In this document: positions 2,296 through 33,969 of the stretch, in pieces
How the letters are laid out: each line of letters begins with the position of its first letter
How positions within the stretch are numbered: position 1 is the stretch's first letter
Assembly (NCBI GenBank): GCA_028873815.1
Contig: JAPPNN010000087.1
Coordinates: 1-64,000, forward strand
Length of the DNA stretch: 64,000 nucleotides
Direction of reading: 5' to 3'
Source of the DNA: Gemmatimonadota bacterium
GTDB lineage: Bacteria; Gemmatimonadota; Gemmatimonadetes; Longimicrobiales; Gaopeijiaceae
The notes under the pieces: model-generated
Told to the model about the DNA's origin: nothing
Seen by the model: only the letters and a program-made list of their open reading frames with translations
The model's database searches: none
Position numbers and translations under genes: made by a program

Positions 2296-2347
2296 GGCAA
2301 GAAGGGCAGATCGTGCAGTCCCTATTGAACTTACGTGACTTCTTGCC
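2296..2347. repeat. 9-bp inverted repeat with long loop
   Basis: GGCAAGAAG (2296-2304) and CTTCTTGCC (2339-2347) are perfect inverted copies separated by 34 bases. They lie between the convergent ends of the barrel gene and the NFACT-like gene, so they may contribute to a transcript 3' end. No T run follows. Confidence 0.35.
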
Positions 2348-2378
2348 TTGATTCTCGATACCTCCGCCCTGCCGGCCC

Positions 2379-2428
2379 GGCGCCTCGCCGCTCTCGGTGC
2401 TCGGGCGGCTTTGTCCACGGACAGCTAG
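2379..2428 (-). repeat. 3'-end hairpin repeat, copy A
   Basis: This is the first of three copies of a 45-50 bp element. On the minus strand it starts at the TAG stop of the NFACT-like gene and reads CTGTCCGTGGACAAAGCCGC, then CCGAGC, ACCGAGA and GCGGCGAGGCGCC. The hairpin arms are GCCGCTC (2387-2393) and GGGCGGC (2403-2409) with a 9-base loop and one T-G wobble. Related copies lie at 19685-19731 and 33829-33879. Confidence 0.7.
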
Positions 2429-4029
2429 GCCTGTAGCCGCTCCGTCAGCGCTGGATCCGGCGACACGAATACGGTGCGGACGCGGTCCGGGACCACCGCG
2501 CCCGGCGCCGCCCCCCTGGGCTTGCGCACCCACTTGCGGCGGGTCCAGTCGACCGGCACCGTTGCCGCCGCCCGCGCGCTGCTGTGGTTGGCGGCCAGAA
2601 TCGCGGCTTCCTCGAGATCGGCGGCAGGGGGGCGCTCCGGGTTCGTCCAGCGCAGAATGACGTGTGCCCCCGTTCCGTGCCGCGCGTGCAGCCAGATGTC
2701 GGCGGGCCGCGAATGGCGGAACGTGAGGTCGTCGTTGCGGCGGGCACCGCGACCGACCCGGATCTCCAGACCGCCCGAGCTCCTGTAGGACCGATAGGGA
2801 AGGGGCACGGGACCAGGGCGGGCATGGGAGCGGTTGGCCGGCGCGGGTGTGAGAGCCGCAATCTCACGGGGCGTCAGTTCTGCCTGCCGGGCGCGCTGCT
2901 GCAGCTTCGTAATCCGGGCGAGCTCGGTCTCCGCTTCGCGTATCCTGTCGCGCAGCTTTGCGGCGCCCCTCTCAAGTCTGCTGGCTCGACGGAAGAGCGC
3001 ATTGGCGTGATCCTGAGGTTTGCTTGCAGGATCCAGCGATACCATATGTGGCTTATCATCGAAGCCGACGAGTTTCGCTTCGCTTGAGCCGATGTCGATC
3101 AGGTGAAGCGAGGACAGGATCAGGGCGGCATCCTCCCGCATCCGGTCGGCGCGGGCCGTGCGTTCCAACTCGTGGCGCAGCCGCTTCAGCTTTCGTTGCA
3201 GGCGGCGGCGTTCACGGGCCAGGGAGCGGGCAACCGCGGCGGGTGCGCGGCCAGCGTCGGGATGCGCGGCGGCGAGCACCTCGTCCATTGCCTGCAACAG
3301 GCTCTGGGTAGGACGGGCGGGTGTGCCGGCGAGGGGCCAGGGATACGGCTGGAGTCCGGATCGCATCTCCAACAGATGAGGCGAAGGGGCGACCTGCGTG
3401 TACATCCCGTGCCACCTGTGGAACCCCTCTTCCCTGGTCGGAGTCTCCAGCAGATACGGGGCGTTCAGGCTCGACGCGTAGGCGACCCCGGTCAGCAGCG
3501 CCCTGCGGGCATCCTCGGCGTCCAATCCCTCGAAATGCCGTTCCCAGGTCCCCACATCCAGTTTGCCCGTTCTCCGGTTGCCGGCCTGCGCGGAGGGGGA
3601 CGCCCAGGGTTGTCCGACCCGGTGTTTTCGGGAGCCCGTGGCCGTCAGCCGCTTTCGCACGCGGAACTCGGGCCCGTCGGTCCACAGCGCGTTCCAGCGG
3701 TTCGTCGCGAGTTCCACAATAAGCGACGGATGCGGCTTCCTGCCCCGCACGCGCCGGAATCCAAGCACTATCACCCGCTCGTCCCAAACCGCCTCCACGC
3801 GGCTCAGCGTGGCGGGAAGCGGCTCGGCTTCCGGACCCGGCTCCGATGCCTCCCGCAGTACGATCGCTCCGGCCCCGGGGGACAGGTCCACGATCAGCGA
3901 CGCGTCGCGGAAATAGACCGTGACCCGTCTGGTTTCCCTGTTGAATCGGATAGCGCGCGCACGCGCATCGGCAAGCCGATTACCGAGTTCGGCAGCCACG
4001 GCGCGGGCCAGGCAGGGGTCCCAGATCAC
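2425..4029 (-). CDS. NFACT/RqcH-like ribosome quality control protein
   Basis: Resembles the NFACT family (RqcH/Rqc2, FbpA-like), which binds obstructed 50S subunits and recruits alanyl-tRNA to tag stalled chains. The N-terminal NFACT-N region is followed by a charged coiled coil (RERRRLQRKLKRLRHELER, then a second helix near ERGAAKLRDRIREAETELA). The C-terminal NFACT-R (DUF814) domain carries the family signature DIWLHARHGTGAHVILR and the closing KPRGAAPGAVVP...VFVSPD pattern. With GTG 4029 (VIWDPCLARAVAAELG) the product is 534 residues, near the usual 550-590. The frame is open further upstream, but that would run into the divergent gene at 4136. No strong ribosome binding site was found. 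The stop codon abuts hairpin repeat copy A. Confidence 0.8.
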   Translation of the reverse strand: MIWDPCLARAVAAELGNRLADARARAIRFNRETRRVTVYFRDASLIVDLSPGAGAIVLREASEPGPEAEPLPATLSRVEAVWDERVIVLGFRRVRGRKPHPSLIVELATNRWNALWTDGPEFRVRKRLTATGSRKHRVGQPWASPSAQAGNRRTGKLDVGTWERHFEGLDAEDARRALLTGVAYASSLNAPYLLETPTREEGFHRWHGMYTQVAPSPHLLEMRSGLQPYPWPLAGTPARPTQSLLQAMDEVLAAAHPDAGRAPAAVARSLARERRRLQRKLKRLRHELERTARADRMREDAALILSSLHLIDIGSSEAKLVGFDDKPHMVSLDPASKPQDHANALFRRASRLERGAAKLRDRIREAETELARITKLQQRARQAELTPREIAALTPAPANRSHARPGPVPLPYRSYRSSGGLEIRVGRGARRNDDLTFRHSRPADIWLHARHGTGAHVILRWTNPERPPAADLEEAAILAANHSSARAAATVPVDWTRRKWVRKPRGAAPGAVVPDRVRTVFVSPDPALTERLQA

Positions 4030-4135
4030 GGGTCTTGGTATCGAGCCCGAGGCCCGGTTACCGTTACGGTGACGTCTGAACTGACCATGCTCCAAGATCA
4101 CATACCCTGCAGCCTGGTGACAAAATGGGGGGAAC

Positions 4136-4735
4136 ATGCCGGTAGGCGTGCGGATGCGGGCCCCGATACACCCGGTCGTCGCGGCCGCTGCGGAGGGGCG
4201 TCTGCCCGGGTGGGCTGTCGCCGGAACCCGCCGGCGGAGGCACACGGAGAGAGTTGCGGATCTGCTCGAAGGCTGGGCCCGCGAGATGGGACTCGGGGAG
4301 GAGACTGAAAGGTGGCGGGCCGCCGGCATCCTGCATGATGCACTGCGAGACGCGTCACCCGCCGAGTTGATCCGTATCCTGCCGCAACGTCTGCGGAAGC
4401 TGCCGCCGAAGGCCTATCACGGTCCCGCCGCGGCCATCCTGCTGCGCGCCGACGGAGTATCGGACCGTGGACTTCTGCGTGCGGTGCGGTGGCATACGCT
4501 GGGCTCGAAGAAGTTCGGCAGGCTGGGCAAGGCTCTTTTCGCCGCTGATTCGCTTGAGCCCGGCCGAGCCGGGAACAGGAAATGGCGAGAGCGACTGAGG
4601 GCGCGGGCATCCCGCGATCTCGACCGAGTAGCAACCGAAATCGTGAGAAACCGGATAGATTACCGTGTACGTGCCGAATTGCCGGTTCACCCGCGCACGA
4701 TCGGCTTCTGGAACTCCCTGGTAAGGGCTTCCTGA
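4136..4735 (+). CDS. YqeK-like HD-domain hydrolase
   Basis: A 199-residue HD phosphohydrolase. The metal-binding set is visible: RRRHTERV (first His), GILHDALRD (the HD pair), AYHGPAAA, AVRWHTLGSKKF and LFAADSLEPGR. The last two are characteristic of the YqeK family, which cleaves diadenosine tetraphosphate symmetrically to ADP. GGGGGGAAC lies just before the ATG. It diverges from the NFACT-like gene with about 106 bases between them. It is followed closely by a LytR_C protein and signal peptidase I, likely one transcript. The substrate assignment rests on family resemblance only. Confidence 0.8.
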   Translation: MPVGVRMRAPIHPVVAAAAEGRLPGWAVAGTRRRRHTERVADLLEGWAREMGLGEETERWRAAGILHDALRDASPAELIRILPQRLRKLPPKAYHGPAAAILLRADGVSDRGLLRAVRWHTLGSKKFGRLGKALFAADSLEPGRAGNRKWRERLRARASRDLDRVATEIVRNRIDYRVRAELPVHPRTIGFWNSLVRAS

Positions 4736-18252: not shown

Positions 18253-19688
18253 CAGCGGACGGCAGCACGCAAGAGCCGAGCGCCAGTTCTTCCGGCAAGG
18301 TATGCAGAGCGCCGCTTGTAGGCCGGTGGGCGAGCCTCGAGTTCGACCTCCAGATCATTCTGTTGTCCAACCTGGCCGGACTGCCGGCTTTTGCGCTCGC
18401 AATGTACCTCCTGTGGACGGGAGATATCGCGACATGGACCCGCTGGCTCGCCACCGGGGGGATCCTGCTCCTGTGGGGAGGGTTGACCGCGGTCTTGCGA
18501 GCGAGGCTTGTGCGCCCGATCCGCACACTGTCCAGTGTCCTGCTGGCGTTGAGGGAAGGTGACTTCTCGATCCGCACGCGTGTTCCGAAGACACTGAAGG
18601 GACCGCTCGCGCTGGCCTTCCAGGAGGCCAACAAACTGGAAGCCATCCTGAGGGAGCAGCGGCTGGGTGCCGTCGAGGCCACGGTGCTCCTGCGGAGGAT
18701 TCTGGAGGAGATCGACGTGGCGGTGTTTGCGTTCGACGAGGACGAGAAGCTCCGCATTCTCAACCGGGCCGGCGAGCGGTTGCTGAGCCAGCCCTCGGAG
18801 GACGTTCTGGGCAGGTCCGCCACCGACCTGCGACTGCAGGAAGGCCTGGTCGGTGAGGCGCCACGGACGATGGAGGTGAATCTGCCGGGTGGGCAGGGGA
18901 GGTGGGAGCTGAAGCGCACCGTCATCCGCCAGGAGGGCGCACCCTTGAAGCTTCTGGTGCTTTCGGATCTATCCCGGGCCCTGCGGGAGGAGGAGCGTCT
19001 GGCATGGAAGCGCATTATCCGTGTGCTCAGCCACGAGATCAACAACAGCCTGGCGCCGATCAAGTCGATCGCGAGCAGTCTGCGCAAGCTTCTGGGCGGC
19101 GATTCGGTTCGGGGCAGGCTCCGCGATGATCTGTCGCGCGGACTCGGCGTGATCGTGGGCCGCGCCGAGTCCCTTGGCCGCTTCATGGCAGCGTACGCGC
19201 GCCTTGCCCGCCTGCCGGCACCGACGCTGGTGTCGACGCCGGTCGGGCCGCTGATCAGACGAAGCGCCGATCTGGAGACGCGGTTGAAGGTGGAGGTGGC
19301 GGATGGTCCCGAGGTGAGCGTCATGGCGGATCCGGATCAGCTGGACCAGTTGCTCATCAACCTTGTGCGCAACGCGGCCGACGCGGCGCTGGCCTGTGGT
19401 GGCGGGGTCAGGGTACGGTGGCGGGTGCGCGGCGAGGAGTCGCTCGAAGTGGTGGTGGAGGATGAAGGGCAGGGCCTGCAGGAAACGGGCAACCTCTTCG
19501 TTCCGTTCTATTCCACGAAGCCCGGTGGTTCGGGGATCGGCCTGGTGCTTTGCCAGCAGATCGCCGAGGGACACGGAGGCCGTCTGGCGCTACGGAATCG
19601 CAATCCCCGGGGCGCGGTAGCCATCCTGTCGCTGCCCCTGGAAACGCGGCTCCGGGACAGTCGGTCCCGGAGCCGCGTTTCCGGCTAG
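18249..19688 (+). CDS. NtrY-like sensor histidine kinase
   Basis: 479 residues. Two membrane helices (IILLSNLAGLPAFALAMYLLW; LATGGILLLWGGLTAVL) with almost no periplasmic loop suggest it senses an internal or membrane signal. A HAMP segment (VRPIRTLSSVLLALREGDF), a PAS domain (about 150-225), the H box LSHEINNSLAPIKSIASSL and an ATPase domain (N box NLVRNAADAAL, G box GGSGIGLVLCQQIAEGHGG) follow. It starts at GTG 18249, overlapping the regulator's stop, so they form a cognate pair. The last 16 codons are encoded by a perfect inverted repeat. Confidence 0.9.
   Translation: MTADGSTQEPSASSSGKVCRAPLVGRWASLEFDLQIILLSNLAGLPAFALAMYLLWTGDIATWTRWLATGGILLLWGGLTAVLRARLVRPIRTLSSVLLALREGDFSIRTRVPKTLKGPLALAFQEANKLEAILREQRLGAVEATVLLRRILEEIDVAVFAFDEDEKLRILNRAGERLLSQPSEDVLGRSATDLRLQEGLVGEAPRTMEVNLPGGQGRWELKRTVIRQEGAPLKLLVLSDLSRALREEERLAWKRIIRVLSHEINNSLAPIKSIASSLRKLLGGDSVRGRLRDDLSRGLGVIVGRAESLGRFMAAYARLARLPAPTLVSTPVGPLIRRSADLETRLKVEVADGPEVSVMADPDQLDQLLINLVRNAADAALACGGGVRVRWRVRGEESLEVVVEDEGQGLQETGNLFVPFYSTKPGGSGIGLVLCQQIAEGHGGRLALRNRNPRGAVAILSLPLETRLRDSRSRSRVSG
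19640..19682. terminator. 19-bp perfect hairpin inside kinase 3' end
   Basis: GGAAACGCGGCTCCGGGAC (19640-19658) and its exact reverse complement (19664-19682) flank the 5-base loop AGTCG. The A-rich/T-rich outer ends give terminator character on both strands. It ends 4 bases before the kinase TAG and lies between two convergent genes. Confidence 0.75.
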
Positions 19689-19731
19689 CAGGCGCCTCGC
19701 CGCTCGGGCGGCTCTATCCACGGACTCCTAG
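19685..19731 (-). repeat. 3'-end hairpin repeat, copy B
   Basis: Second copy of the dispersed element. On the minus strand it follows the TAG of the OmpA-family gene as GAGTCCGTGGATAGAGCCGC, then CCGAGCGGCGAGGCGCC. Compared with copies A and C it lacks 9 bases in the loop, leaving GCCGC (19699-19703), TCGG, GCGGC (19708-19712). CTAG occurs at both ends and supplies the stop codons of the two convergent genes. Confidence 0.7.
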
Positions 19732-21188
19732 CGCCCGATGTCGTTGCCTCCGGCGGTAATGACGAACTCGACCCTGCGATTCTGCGCCCAGGTCTGCTCG
19801 TCCGAGCCCGGTACGCGCGGCCGGGTCTCGCCGAAGTACTCCACGGTGAAGCGGGCCACATCGAGCCCTAGCCCGCCCAGGAATTCGAGCACCGCCTCGG
19901 CGCGTAGTCTGGACAGCTCCATGTTGTACACGGGGTCGCCGCGTTCATCCGCGTGGCCTTCGATCCGGATTTCGACGCCCGGATTGTCGCGCAGGATCGC
20001 GGCCTTGGCGCTCAGCCTCTGCCGGGCTTCGTCGTCGACGGTCGCGTCATCGTACTCGAAGTAGACCATCTCCTGCAGGGTGCGGCGGGCGGCCATTGCA
20101 CGGCGCTCCCGCTCCCGCTCGGCCGCCTCTCTCTCGGCCGCGAGGCGACGCTCCTCTTCCGCCTGTGCCCGACGGATCGAGTCCTGACGCATCCGTTCCA
20201 GCTCCTCCGCCGAAGGGCCGGGATCCTCCGGCGGGGGCGGCGGGGGAGGGGGAGGCGGCGGCTCGTCGCCACAGAGCCCCAACCGGCCGGGACACAGGGC
20301 AAACGAGGCAAGCACGCCGAGCTTCCTCGTGCGGAACGTGGTGTGGCCATCACCCGCCAGACTCAGCGAAAAGGCCCCGACCCGGACCCCGCTGAAGTCC
20401 ATCTGCACGCCGGCATTGAGGTCGAAGCCGTTGAACTCGGCCATCAGGTTGAGACCCCGTCCTCCGTCCATGCCGACGTGTATCGTCGATCCGGCGAAGA
20501 GCCCTCCGGAGCCCCGCTGCGTGTAGAAGTCGAGGTCGCCGCCCGCAGAGAAGAGGCCGGCTCCCCAGCCCAGGGTAAGGCTTATGAAGCTCGCGTCGGA
20601 AGTGGGCAGTATGGCGGTGCCGACAGCGTAGGGACTCAGGTTGCTGTTGAACTCGTCCCCCTGCCCCTGGGCCTGACGAGTGCGGTAGTCCGGGTGGCCG
20701 AACCGGGGTGGCTGCAAGTCATCTACCCAGCGGGCGCCGAATGACGGTGAAGAAAGGTAGCGGGCCCCGACCGCGAGCTTCAGGTTTTCGGAGGTCGCGG
20801 GCAGAAGCGAAATACGGCCGAACCCGCCGAGGATGTTGCCGCCGTTCGTTTCGTCGTCGAAGTGCTGAACGGTCGCACCCACCTCCACGCGGTCGAAAAG
20901 CCCGAGCGTGAAGGACAGGTCGGACAGCCATTTCTGGTAGGCATCCCCCCTGCGCCTTACCTCTCCGTTCTGCCTCAGCAACAGTGTCTGATCAATGGAA
21001 ATGCCGAATCCCGAGTACGTTGTGACGAACGTCGAGTGTGGCAGAACGGTCGCGACCGGGACGTCCAGTATGCCGGAACCGTACCGGAGAGTGCTGGGCA
21101 TCTTCGTGGTCTGGGCCGCGCCGTCAGGAACCACGAGGAAGAGTGCGAGAAAAGCGAAAGCGCCGAACCGGAATCTCAACGGATTCAT
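19728..21188 (-). CDS. OmpA-family outer-membrane protein
   Basis: 486 residues. A signal peptide (FGAFAFLALFLVVPDGAAQ) is followed by a beta-barrel-like region of about 290 residues, a proline tract of 11 residues, a charged helix rich in Glu, Arg and Ala (EEERRLAAEREAAERERERR), and a C-terminal OmpA peptidoglycan-binding domain. The last shows FEYDDATVDD, IRIEGHADERGDPVYNMELS and RRVEFVI, including the Asp and Arg that bind diaminopimelate. It probably tethers the outer membrane to the wall. The stop codon is inside repeat copy B. It converges with the kinase gene and diverges from the DUF5916 gene. Confidence 0.88.
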   Translation of the reverse strand: MNPLRFRFGAFAFLALFLVVPDGAAQTTKMPSTLRYGSGILDVPVATVLPHSTFVTTYSGFGISIDQTLLLRQNGEVRRRGDAYQKWLSDLSFTLGLFDRVEVGATVQHFDDETNGGNILGGFGRISLLPATSENLKLAVGARYLSSPSFGARWVDDLQPPRFGHPDYRTRQAQGQGDEFNSNLSPYAVGTAILPTSDASFISLTLGWGAGLFSAGGDLDFYTQRGSGGLFAGSTIHVGMDGGRGLNLMAEFNGFDLNAGVQMDFSGVRVGAFSLSLAGDGHTTFRTRKLGVLASFALCPGRLGLCGDEPPPPPPPPPPPEDPGPSAEELERMRQDSIRRAQAEEERRLAAEREAAERERERRAMAARRTLQEMVYFEYDDATVDDEARQRLSAKAAILRDNPGVEIRIEGHADERGDPVYNMELSRLRAEAVLEFLGGLGLDVARFTVEYFGETRPRVPGSDEQTWAQNRRVEFVITAGGNDIGR

Positions 21189-31540: not shown

Positions 31541-33832
31541 ATGCCCGGTTTGGCCACCAAGCTGATGAAGCGCCGTGTGCCGCATGTATTGGCAATCTAC
31601 GCGGGCGCGTCGTGGGGCCTGGTCGAGTTCATGGCCTTCGCCGTGGACGAGTTCCTGCTGTCACCCCACTGGACCAGGGTGGTGATGGTCGGCGTGCTTC
31701 TGATCCTCCCGAGCGTGCTCATGCTCGCCTGGTTTCACGGGGCCCCCGGCCGCGACGAGATGGCGAGGGTCGAGAAGGTCGGGATCCCCGCCAACCTGGC
31801 GTTGGCCGCAGTCGTGCTGTGGGCGCTCTTCGGCGGCGAGGATCTGGGTGCCGCCACGACGTCCGTATCGGTGGAGACCGAGGACGGCGAGACCGTGGAG
31901 CGCGTCATCCCCAAGGCGGAGTTCCGGAAACGCACCGCGATCTTCCCGCTCGACCTGGGTCCCGGGCTCGGAGATGACGATGCCTGGCTCGCTTACGCGG
32001 TGCCGGTGGCGCTGCTCTACGACCTCATGCCGGACGACTTCTTCGAACCGGTCACGTTCCAGTCGTTCGGGTACCGGCTTTCGGGCCTCGGATTCCCAAG
32101 TTTGCTGGGCGTGCCGCTGGCGTTGAAGCGCGAGATCTCCGAGGAGCTTCATGTCGAATTCATGTCGACGGGTCTCATCAACAGGACCGGCGACCAGTAC
32201 CGCGTGGAGCTGGCGGTGTACGAGGTCGGCACCGGCGCGTTGGCCGGCGAGACTGCCCGTGAGGGACCCGACGTCCTTGCGCTCGTCGACCAGTTGTCGG
32301 TGGACGCCAAGGGAGTATTGGAGATCCCGGCCCGCGGCGGTATCGAAGACCTGCCCGCCCGCGAACGGCTGACCGCGAACGCGGCCGCAATGGAGGAGTT
32401 CGGACGCGGGTTTGCGAAGATCGTCGTGGAGGGGGATCTCCCCGCGTCGCTGCAACATGTCGACGCGGCCACGACCCTGGACCCCACGTTTGCCGTCGCA
32501 CAGCACCTGCACTCGAGTTTGCTCCTGAACGACAACCGGCCGCGCGAGGCCGTGGCCCCGTTGCAGGCGGCGCTGGACCACCTGTACCGGTTTCCGGAAC
32601 GCGTGCGCTTCCAGGTGAAGTCCGACTACTACTTCGCGACGCAACAGACCGACAAGGCCTGGGGCGTCCTGGGAATGTGGGTCGAACTCTACCCCGAGGA
32701 CCTGCTGGCCCTGCGCAACTATGTGTTTGTGCAGCGCATGCGCGGTGACTGGACCGGGCTGCTCGAGACGCTGGGCACGATGTACCGCCTTAGTCCCGAG
32801 GATGCGGATCTCCTCAAGGAGATGGCCGAAGCACACCTCGAACTCGGAGGCACCGATCAGGCGCTTGCGCTGCTTGCAGAGTATATCGAGCAGTTTCCCG
32901 AGGACCACTCGGGGCTATTGGAGCTCGCACAGGTCCACCGGCGGCGGGGAGAGCACGACGTGGCGCGCGACTACGTGGAACGCGCGACCATCCTTCGGCC
33001 CCGGCTTTCCGCCACCGCCGCCGCACTCGCGTCGCTGGATGTGGACGCCGGACGGTTCGAGGATGCGCGCGAGGGCTACGAGCGGGCGATGGAGCTTGCA
33101 CGCACGCCGGTCCAGCGGGCAGCCGTCCTGACGGGCCTCAAGCGCTACCACGGCATGCGCGGCGAGGCCGGGAACACCGTTGTGGCCGTGAACCGATGGG
33201 TGGAAGAGGCTTCGAGGTACACGACGCCGATCAGCATCGTGCAGAGCCGCTTCTACGACATTCCCCTTCTCTTCGGCGTTGGCCGCCACGAGGAGGCGGT
33301 CGCCCTCTTCGAGGAGCTCAGGACCCAGGTGGAACCCCCGCTCAGCGACTACTTCGTCCCTCATCTGGCGATTCATGTGCTGCTGGAGACGGAAGGCGCC
33401 GAGGCCGCCCGGGAAGCGCACGGCCGGGCGGTCGAAGTGGCGAACGCCCGCCAATTCGGCGCTCTACTGCCGCTCCTCGAGGGAGACCTGGGCAGAATCC
33501 ACGAGCGCGCCGGCGACTACGATGCGGCCTTCGAAAGCTACGCGAAGGCGATGAAGCTCAACCCCGGACGCACCCACCACCGCGACGCCGGACGCGTGCT
33601 CAGGAAGGCCGGCAGACTGGATGAGGCCGAGTCCGAACTGCGTGCGTCCCTCCGCCTCGTGCCCGGACATCCGCGCACGCACTTCGAGATGGCGCTTCTT
33701 CTGGAGGCACAGGTCAACATCCCGGGCGCCCTGGAGCACCTGCGGCGCGCGCTCGAGGGCTGGGCGACCGCCGACGATGCCTTCGAACCCGCGCAGCGGG
33801 CCCGCGCGAAGCTGGCCGAACTGGAGGGCTAG
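31541..33832 (+). CDS. membrane-anchored TPR protein
   Basis: 763 residues. Two N-terminal membrane helices (VLAIYAGASWGLVEFMAFAV region and WTRVVMVGVLLILPSVLMLAW), a third hydrophobic segment near residue 90, a roughly 200-residue periplasmic region (RTAIFPLDLGPGLGDDDAWL), then about 12 TPR-like repeats to the end (e.g. YAKAMKLNPGRTHHRDAGRV, LRASLRLVPGHPRTHFEMAL). Similar N-termini occur in Gemmatimonadota proteins fused to kinase or cyclase domains, but no such domain is present. It probably scaffolds a complex. Divergent from the serine hydrolase gene. Repeat copy C begins at its TAG. Confidence 0.75.
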   Translation: MPGLATKLMKRRVPHVLAIYAGASWGLVEFMAFAVDEFLLSPHWTRVVMVGVLLILPSVLMLAWFHGAPGRDEMARVEKVGIPANLALAAVVLWALFGGEDLGAATTSVSVETEDGETVERVIPKAEFRKRTAIFPLDLGPGLGDDDAWLAYAVPVALLYDLMPDDFFEPVTFQSFGYRLSGLGFPSLLGVPLALKREISEELHVEFMSTGLINRTGDQYRVELAVYEVGTGALAGETAREGPDVLALVDQLSVDAKGVLEIPARGGIEDLPARERLTANAAAMEEFGRGFAKIVVEGDLPASLQHVDAATTLDPTFAVAQHLHSSLLLNDNRPREAVAPLQAALDHLYRFPERVRFQVKSDYYFATQQTDKAWGVLGMWVELYPEDLLALRNYVFVQRMRGDWTGLLETLGTMYRLSPEDADLLKEMAEAHLELGGTDQALALLAEYIEQFPEDHSGLLELAQVHRRRGEHDVARDYVERATILRPRLSATAAALASLDVDAGRFEDAREGYERAMELARTPVQRAAVLTGLKRYHGMRGEAGNTVVAVNRWVEEASRYTTPISIVQSRFYDIPLLFGVGRHEEAVALFEELRTQVEPPLSDYFVPHLAIHVLLETEGAEAAREAHGRAVEVANARQFGALLPLLEGDLGRIHERAGDYDAAFESYAKAMKLNPGRTHHRDAGRVLRKAGRLDEAESELRASLRLVPGHPRTHFEMALLLEAQVNIPGALEHLRRALEGWATADDAFEPAQRARAKLAELEG

Positions 33833-33879
33833 CGGTCTGCGGATAAAGCCGCTCGAGCACCGAGAGCGGCGATGCGCCG
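33829..33879 (+). repeat. 3'-end hairpin repeat, copy C
   Basis: Third copy, plus strand, starting at the TPR gene's TAG: CGGTCTGCGGATAAAGCCGC, then TCGAGC, ACCGAGA, GCGGCGATGCGCC. Hairpin arms GCCGCTC (33848-33854) and GAGCGGC (33864-33870) pair perfectly around a 9-base loop. Where copy A has a T-G pair, this copy has T-A. Confidence 0.7.
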
Positions 33880-33969
33880 GACGGGCGCTCGCGCCTGCGA
33901 ACCCTTCACCAGCCGGAAACGGACGATATAGTCGACCTCGAATTCGTCCTGCTCGGTGGCCTGCTGGTT

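Follow-up and report, generated by a model that had tools for sequence, protein, structure and literature searches.

In the current study, we followed up three short repeats, each placed directly after a stop codon, in a 64,000-nucleotide stretch of DNA from a Gemmatimonadota bacterium (here called the window). Through this analysis, we identified a palindromic element that is non-coding and, in most copies, 168 or 243 bp long. It is very probably a MITE with CTAG as its target that an IS1182-like DDE transposase mobilizes in trans, its position at stop codons arising through the choice of target and through survival. The transposase would cut at CTAG or close variants of it (CCAG, CTGG, TTAA) and duplicate the tetranucleotide. 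CTAG is rare and is often a stop, which would account for the stop-codon position, and duplication of the word would restore the stop after insertion; because CTAG often contains a stop, the element can land after a gene without breaking it. Insertions within genes would be lost, leaving survivors at gene ends or between genes.

The window copies and the complete element

Re-read directly, the three repeat stretches in the window (copies A, B, and C) have the sequence that the original prediction described. Each indeed starts at the TAG of an unrelated gene (NFACT, OmpA, and TPR), as seen from the sequence, the open reading frames (ORFs), and Pfam domains. CTAG lies at the left edge of each copy, and the TAG within it is the stop of the adjoining ORF. 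The features are as follows.

2425-4329, minus strand: ORF ending at copy A, with an NFACT domain (Pfam)
2425-2428, minus strand: CTAG target word whose TAG ends the NFACT gene; relatives G019 and G001, which are without the element here, have the same CTAG stop
2365-2424, minus strand: copy A, the left (5') ca. 60 bp of the mini-transposon; 95% identity to query positions 1-64
2296-2353, minus strand: second repeat fused to copy A; identical junction in several other loci
19728-21188, minus strand: ORF ending at copy B, with an OmpA domain (Pfam)
19728-19731, minus strand: CTAG whose TAG ends the OmpA-family gene; G019 and G001, in which the element is absent here, also have a CTAG stop
19690-19727, minus strand: copy B, a left end with a 9-bp internal deletion and the right part gone (from sequence reading and comparison of relatives)
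19685-19688, minus strand: second CTAG at the border of copy B
31541-33832, plus strand: ORF ending at copy C, with a TPR domain (Pfam)
33829-33832, plus strand: CTAG whose TAG ends the TPR gene; in G007, TAG at the same place and element absent
33833-33884, plus strand: copy C, the left ca. 52 bp of the mini-transposon; 88% identity to query positions 1-58, with the same truncated copy in G004

Read from their sequence, copies A, B, and C are decayed left-end fragments of the mini-transposon; the 50 bp originally described are real and make up only the left end of a 168- or 243-bp element. Copy B had been said to lose exactly a 9-base loop. The 9-base loss stands, and since the lost bases sit between two GAGC direct repeats, slippage accounts for it as well as loop loss does. 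The second CTAG of copy B may be native rather than a target duplication, given that G019 has CTAG in the same area. Directly after copy B, at 19640-19682, there is an extended inverted repeat that is nearly perfect (GGAAACGCGGCTCCGGGAC...GTCCCGGAGCCGCGTTTCC) and mostly conserved in G004 and G019; as a native hairpin of the gene end, it is a stronger candidate than the element itself. The second repeat that adjoins copy A is about 120 bp long (GGCAAGAA...TTCTTGCC, then GAATGGCGGGA) and was also seen in L058, L097, L143, L063, L233, and L132; among 12 aligned loci it stands alone in 5 and is fused to the left end of the mini-transposon, at the same junction, in 7, and its comparison with Rfam gave a chance-level match only.

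A degenerate 18-mer had three exact matches in the window and five at up to three mismatches (an average of 1.55 in shuffles, with five reached in 2 of 100), and it had 21 exact places in the 4.29-Mb assembly to which the window belongs. At up to three mismatches, the whole genome gave 125 matches, which hardly exceeds the 106 of the reversed-pattern control; the signal therefore resides in near-exact matches. A blastn search of this genome with the full element returned 56 pieces, merged by hand into at least 40 loci, a lower bound given that 40 of 119 candidates were scored (copy B of the window was not among them). In the 240 bp after each of 30 matches in this genome, complete copies run for 168 or ca. 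243 bp and end in the inverted start. A first set of loci held 80 complete copies in sharp size classes; a larger set held 110 complete non-tandem copies (38 of 168 bp and 27 of 243 bp), a few near-symmetric ones among which (e.g., L172) may be counted in both orientations. The terminal inverted repeats are C/G-AGTCCGTGGAYAAA, the outermost base being C..G in 81 and G..C in 15 of the 110 copies, and the outermost bases are concordant (complementary) at both ends in 97 of 110 (shuffled mean, 72.5; maximum, 85). The element is thus short, non-coding, and multi-copy and has terminal inverted repeats, as MITEs do. In members of the 243-bp class (e.g., L017, L019, and L022), the GC-rich sequence is interrupted by an AT-rich insert that contains TGTAAA/TTTACA palindromes. 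Several tandem arrays have a common 6-nt junction, shorter in the period-171 array of G021, and this junction may reflect insertion into the duplication of a neighboring copy.

At an E value of ≤0.001, the element matched in at least 35 of 59 genomes, namely, its own, all 22 other members of the genus, and 12 of 36 outside it; 14 candidates per genome were scored, and absence outside the genus is accordingly not firm. Copies that are 98 to 99% identical are carried by G004, G014, and G019, and no match to the element was found in a plasmid collection. The proposal of a dispersed mobile repeat family, and with it the search of the whole genome and related genomes for further copies, was in this way borne out.

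The majority-rule forms of the element fold as a single rod (178 nt, -122.8 kcal/mol; 253 nt, -138.2 kcal/mol). For the short form, a left-arm filter retained 46 of the 56 copies found, and the alignment comprised 44 of these, two tandem copies from a single array being omitted. In this alignment, 17 of 56 pairs vary at both positions and pairing holds in 97.9% of cells, counts of covariation that are inflated by the relatedness of the copies; none of 500 shuffles reaches any of five measures, and slid versions drop to 29 to 42% paired. The strongest covarying pairs lie in the central stem (columns 73-89, C-G in 26 and G-C in 17; columns 75-87, G-C in 24 and A-U in 20). The covariation denotes a maintained hairpin and not an RNA function, because relatedness inflates the counts and the palindrome may be kept for transposition. 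Rfam gave no match over the gathering score in the window, and in four loci with long copies it gave only a CRISPR-repeat match below the cut-off (E, 0.29). Folded alone, fragments A, B, and C (z of 0.84, 0.95, and -1.20, respectively) are not more stable than shuffles. The hairpin is a property of the complete element and not of the window fragments, and the earlier statement that the stem is kept holds for the former, whose arms covary, but not for the latter.

Target word and position at stop codons

Among the flanks of 309 distinct element ends, CTAGC was the commonest (79). Empty sites were sought by joining the flanks of a copy without the element and searching relatives with the result; 16 loci were examined in this manner. 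The target duplication that they reveal is 4 bp, with the consensus CTAG, and is clean or nearly clean at six of them.

L006: duplication CCAG; one copy in empty G004, G019, and G001, not in G016
L304: duplication CCAG; empty in G019 and G000, CGAG in G001
L302: duplication TTAA; empty site TTAG in G000
L306: flanks CCGG/CCTG; empty site CCGG in G004
L311: duplication CTAG, plus one extra shared base
L294: duplication CTAG; relative to the empty site, which has CTAG in G000 and G019, one side lacks 4 bases

The other 10 loci are not clean: at L298 and L305 the flanks do not agree with the empty site, at L015 relatives carry the element as well, and the rest are too diverged or rearranged for reading. 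A 6-bp target duplication was discarded on the evidence of the empty sites. The flanking 4-mers are identical in 20 of the 110 complete copies (shuffled mean, 7.8; 0 of 2,000 shuffles reach 20), and exact duplication is absent in 90. Flanks matching at three of four bases (49 of 110, versus 41.1 in shuffles; P of 0.019) stand weakly above the shuffles, and exact inverted flank matches number nine.

Genes around elements and CTAG sites were called with a crude codon model of our own. Among 152 genes approaching an element, 56 stop at -4 from it (55 of these with TAG), compared with a stop within -6 to -2 at 2 of 1,200 random positions. CTAG itself is depleted to a third (84 seen versus 258 expected in 400 kb of G021). 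In ten contiguous pieces of two genomes, the 167 CTAG sites outside elements comprise 44 at stops, 54 that are intergenic, and 69 within genes. None of the 44 element loci in these pieces is inside a called gene, and 22 (50%) are flush with a stop, so the enrichment directly after stop codons claimed at the outset is upheld. From extragenic CTAG sites alone, 45% (44 of 98) would be expected at stops, close to what is seen, and the suggestion that gene ends as such are targeted gives way to CTAG as the target. A stricter stop test (28 of 136 CTAG sites versus 29 of 74 complete copies at a stop, with six short-flank copies omitted) pointed in the same direction.

The alternative that survives best, although we think it improbable, is a 3'-UTR or bidirectional terminator family whose hairpin is selected at gene ends to end transcription or protect mRNA. 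Its strongest assets are the hairpin, with its covariation and -122.8 kcal/mol for the 178-nt form, and the arrangement of neighboring genes, which are convergent at 14 of 44 element loci versus 97 of 673 gene pairs. Such an excess would be expected of terminators, but it is also expected if promoters are avoided. However, no terminator-like site (a GC stem followed by a T run) occurs at copy A, B, or C, close relatives have empty sites, and CTAG targeting predicts the share at stops without selection for termination, half of the loci not being flush with a stop at all. The original prediction had offered a terminator or 3'-UTR family as one reading of the repeats, and these data do not favor it.

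It is more doubtful still that the terminal repeat brings the stop with it, such that insertion into gene ends truncates genes, delivers a TAG, and is retained. TAG does lie within the conserved edge block at 126 of 309 ends, and the transposase frame of the intact IS also terminates within the flanking CTAG. At locus A, the gene ends differently in three of seven element-free relatives (G003, G015, and G021), but the other four have TAG at the same codon (CTAG in G019, G001, and G013; GTAG in G018). The same codon is TAG at locus B in three of four element-free relatives (G019, G001, and G021), with the stop two codons later in G018, and at locus C in G007, the one element-free relative aligned (G004 has copy C). 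Each window locus, then, has element-free relatives with TAG at the same codon, and for this reason the stop came before the element at most of these; the empty L294 site of G000 and G019 has CTAG, which likewise argues against a stop brought by the repeat. The stop is not always kept, however, since at locus B of G004 (L463) the element is a tip-to-tip stub from which the first TAG is lost, and the frame of the OmpA-family gene continues across this stub as far as a later TAG.

REP/BIME and ERIC sequences are intergenic palindromes as well. A REP/RAYT element mobilized by a tyrosine transposase of the Y1 type that recognizes a tetranucleotide and a hairpin, which the original prediction had raised as a REP-like repeat, would explain dispersed extragenic palindromes with a tetranucleotide at the hairpin foot, but, barring a very divergent Y1 gene, it can practically be dismissed: Y1_Tnp (PF01797) of the RAYT type was found in 0 of 23 genus genomes versus 5 of 14 control genomes, and 4-bp duplications are present here, which Y1 elements are not known to make.

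An IS1182-like insertion sequence as candidate driver

Transposition in trans as a CTAG-targeting MITE calls for a partner, and a candidate came from a search with DDE_Tnp_1 (PF01609), which matched in 15 of 23 genus genomes and included loci with a transposase between CTAG-CAGBCYGTGGAHRA ends. Among ten such insertion sequence stretches, both ends are present in eight, 1,496 to 1,527 bp apart, with CTAG at 15 of 16 ends, and the best of these ends (from G016) equals the element end at 17 of 18 bases when compared by eye. The transposase (P0001) matches DUF772 and DDE_Tnp_1 of Pfam, both over the cut-off, and its best NCBIfam match is IS1182 (NF033551) at 192.6 bits, below the cut-off of 270. 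Because it scores under this curated cut-off, we call the putative partner IS1182-like only. In L399 and L402, the transposase frame crosses its own terminal repeat and stops at the TAG of the flanking CTAG; there, the target word supplies the stop of the transposase.

IS1182-like transposases occur in 17 of 59 relatives and are full length without stops in G001, G016, and G005. In the assembly of the window, the sole trace found of the likely driver is a broken copy that retains both of its recognizable ends (L417, G000:C7:2605-3525). No intact transposase was found in this assembly (broken pieces) or in G014, and G004 and G019 held pieces only. That G004, G014, and G019, the genomes with the youngest copies, are without an intact transposase is the weakest point of the explanation; draft assemblies and loss could be the cause.

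A search for a DDE_5 (PF13546) partner gave weak matches in 6 of 23 genomes, one of them over the cut-off only together with its frame neighbors. We rejected this candidate, as its G016 locus (L367) is the same insertion sequence that PF01609 had found and its other loci are without matching ends. An initial scan of loci for a partner yielded 38 end pairs, and visual inspection revealed no convincing one among them.

MITEs with IS1182 partners are already known, and ours, with its IS1182-like candidate partner, is a new family of that kind. In Methanosarcina acetivorans, ISMac2 of the IS1182 family has MITEs of 160 and 169 bp, in 14 and 7 copies, with inverted repeats of 26 and 25 bp and, in one case, a 4-bp duplication (PMC3852290, Table 4). 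These resemble the present element in size, inverted ends, 4-bp duplication, and IS1182 partner; they differ in their archaeal host, and the sections of PMC3852290 consulted make no mention of a position at stops (its main text has 0 occurrences of the term “stop codon”) or of a common hairpin core. MITEPsy1 of Pseudomonas syringae, as presented in the consulted portion of PMC3189936, is likewise short (ca. 100 bp), with inverted ends, and duplicates CTAG or YTAA; its ends resemble ISPsy2 and differ in sequence from those of our element, and its site is not tied there to stops. ISPse1, an IS1182-family member, has 16-bp inverted ends and a 4-bp duplication according to the part of PMC3281130 consulted; our candidate partner has IS1182 as its best NCBIfam match, yet its transposase falls under the curated cut-off. 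A literature search by titles and the openings of abstracts, covering few subscription journals, returned no apparent description of this element.

A hairpin core shared with a distant genome

A less ordinary aspect of this family is that a distant genome has the same hairpin core, there joined to unrelated terminal repeats and once more located at CTAG. The core consists of GGCGCGACGA, a stem-loop, and GAGGAGCAACGC and is flanked by GCACCGAG and CGAATGCCG. The central core pattern was found in 31 of 298 Gemmatimonadota genomes, 18 of this genus and 13 outside it, and the reversed pattern was found 0 times among the matches listed. In G282, which belongs to another family of the same class, elements have the same core and subterminal words with unrelated ends (TGTCCCGAGTCAGAA). 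Nine flanks of these elements read CTAG (5), TTAG (2), CTGG (1), and AGAG (1), that is, CTAG, TTAG, or CTGG at 8 of 9, and no transposase adjoining them was seen by eye. The second of the two core matches outside the genus that we inspected (L469, in G079) has no clear relationship, and two viral-contig matches of the core pattern seemed, on visual inspection, to be unrelated.

One speculative possibility, which we hold to be somewhat unlikely, is that of a modular hairpin parasite, in which the covarying core keeps its fold and the terminal repeats are swapped to suit different CTAG-cutting transposases. If so, the core, and not the ends, would be the persisting lineage, and the core hairpin would have its own role in copying.

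Repeats that hug stop codons would, on the explanation favored here, have a plain and testable reason, in that a CTAG-targeting transposase finds tolerated sites mostly at gene ends and between genes. This is also a caution: the position of a repeat next to stops need not mean a terminator or the targeting of gene ends. Finally, these results record a mobile element family and a candidate driver for it in an uncultured bacterial group that is known here from metagenome-assembled genomes only.
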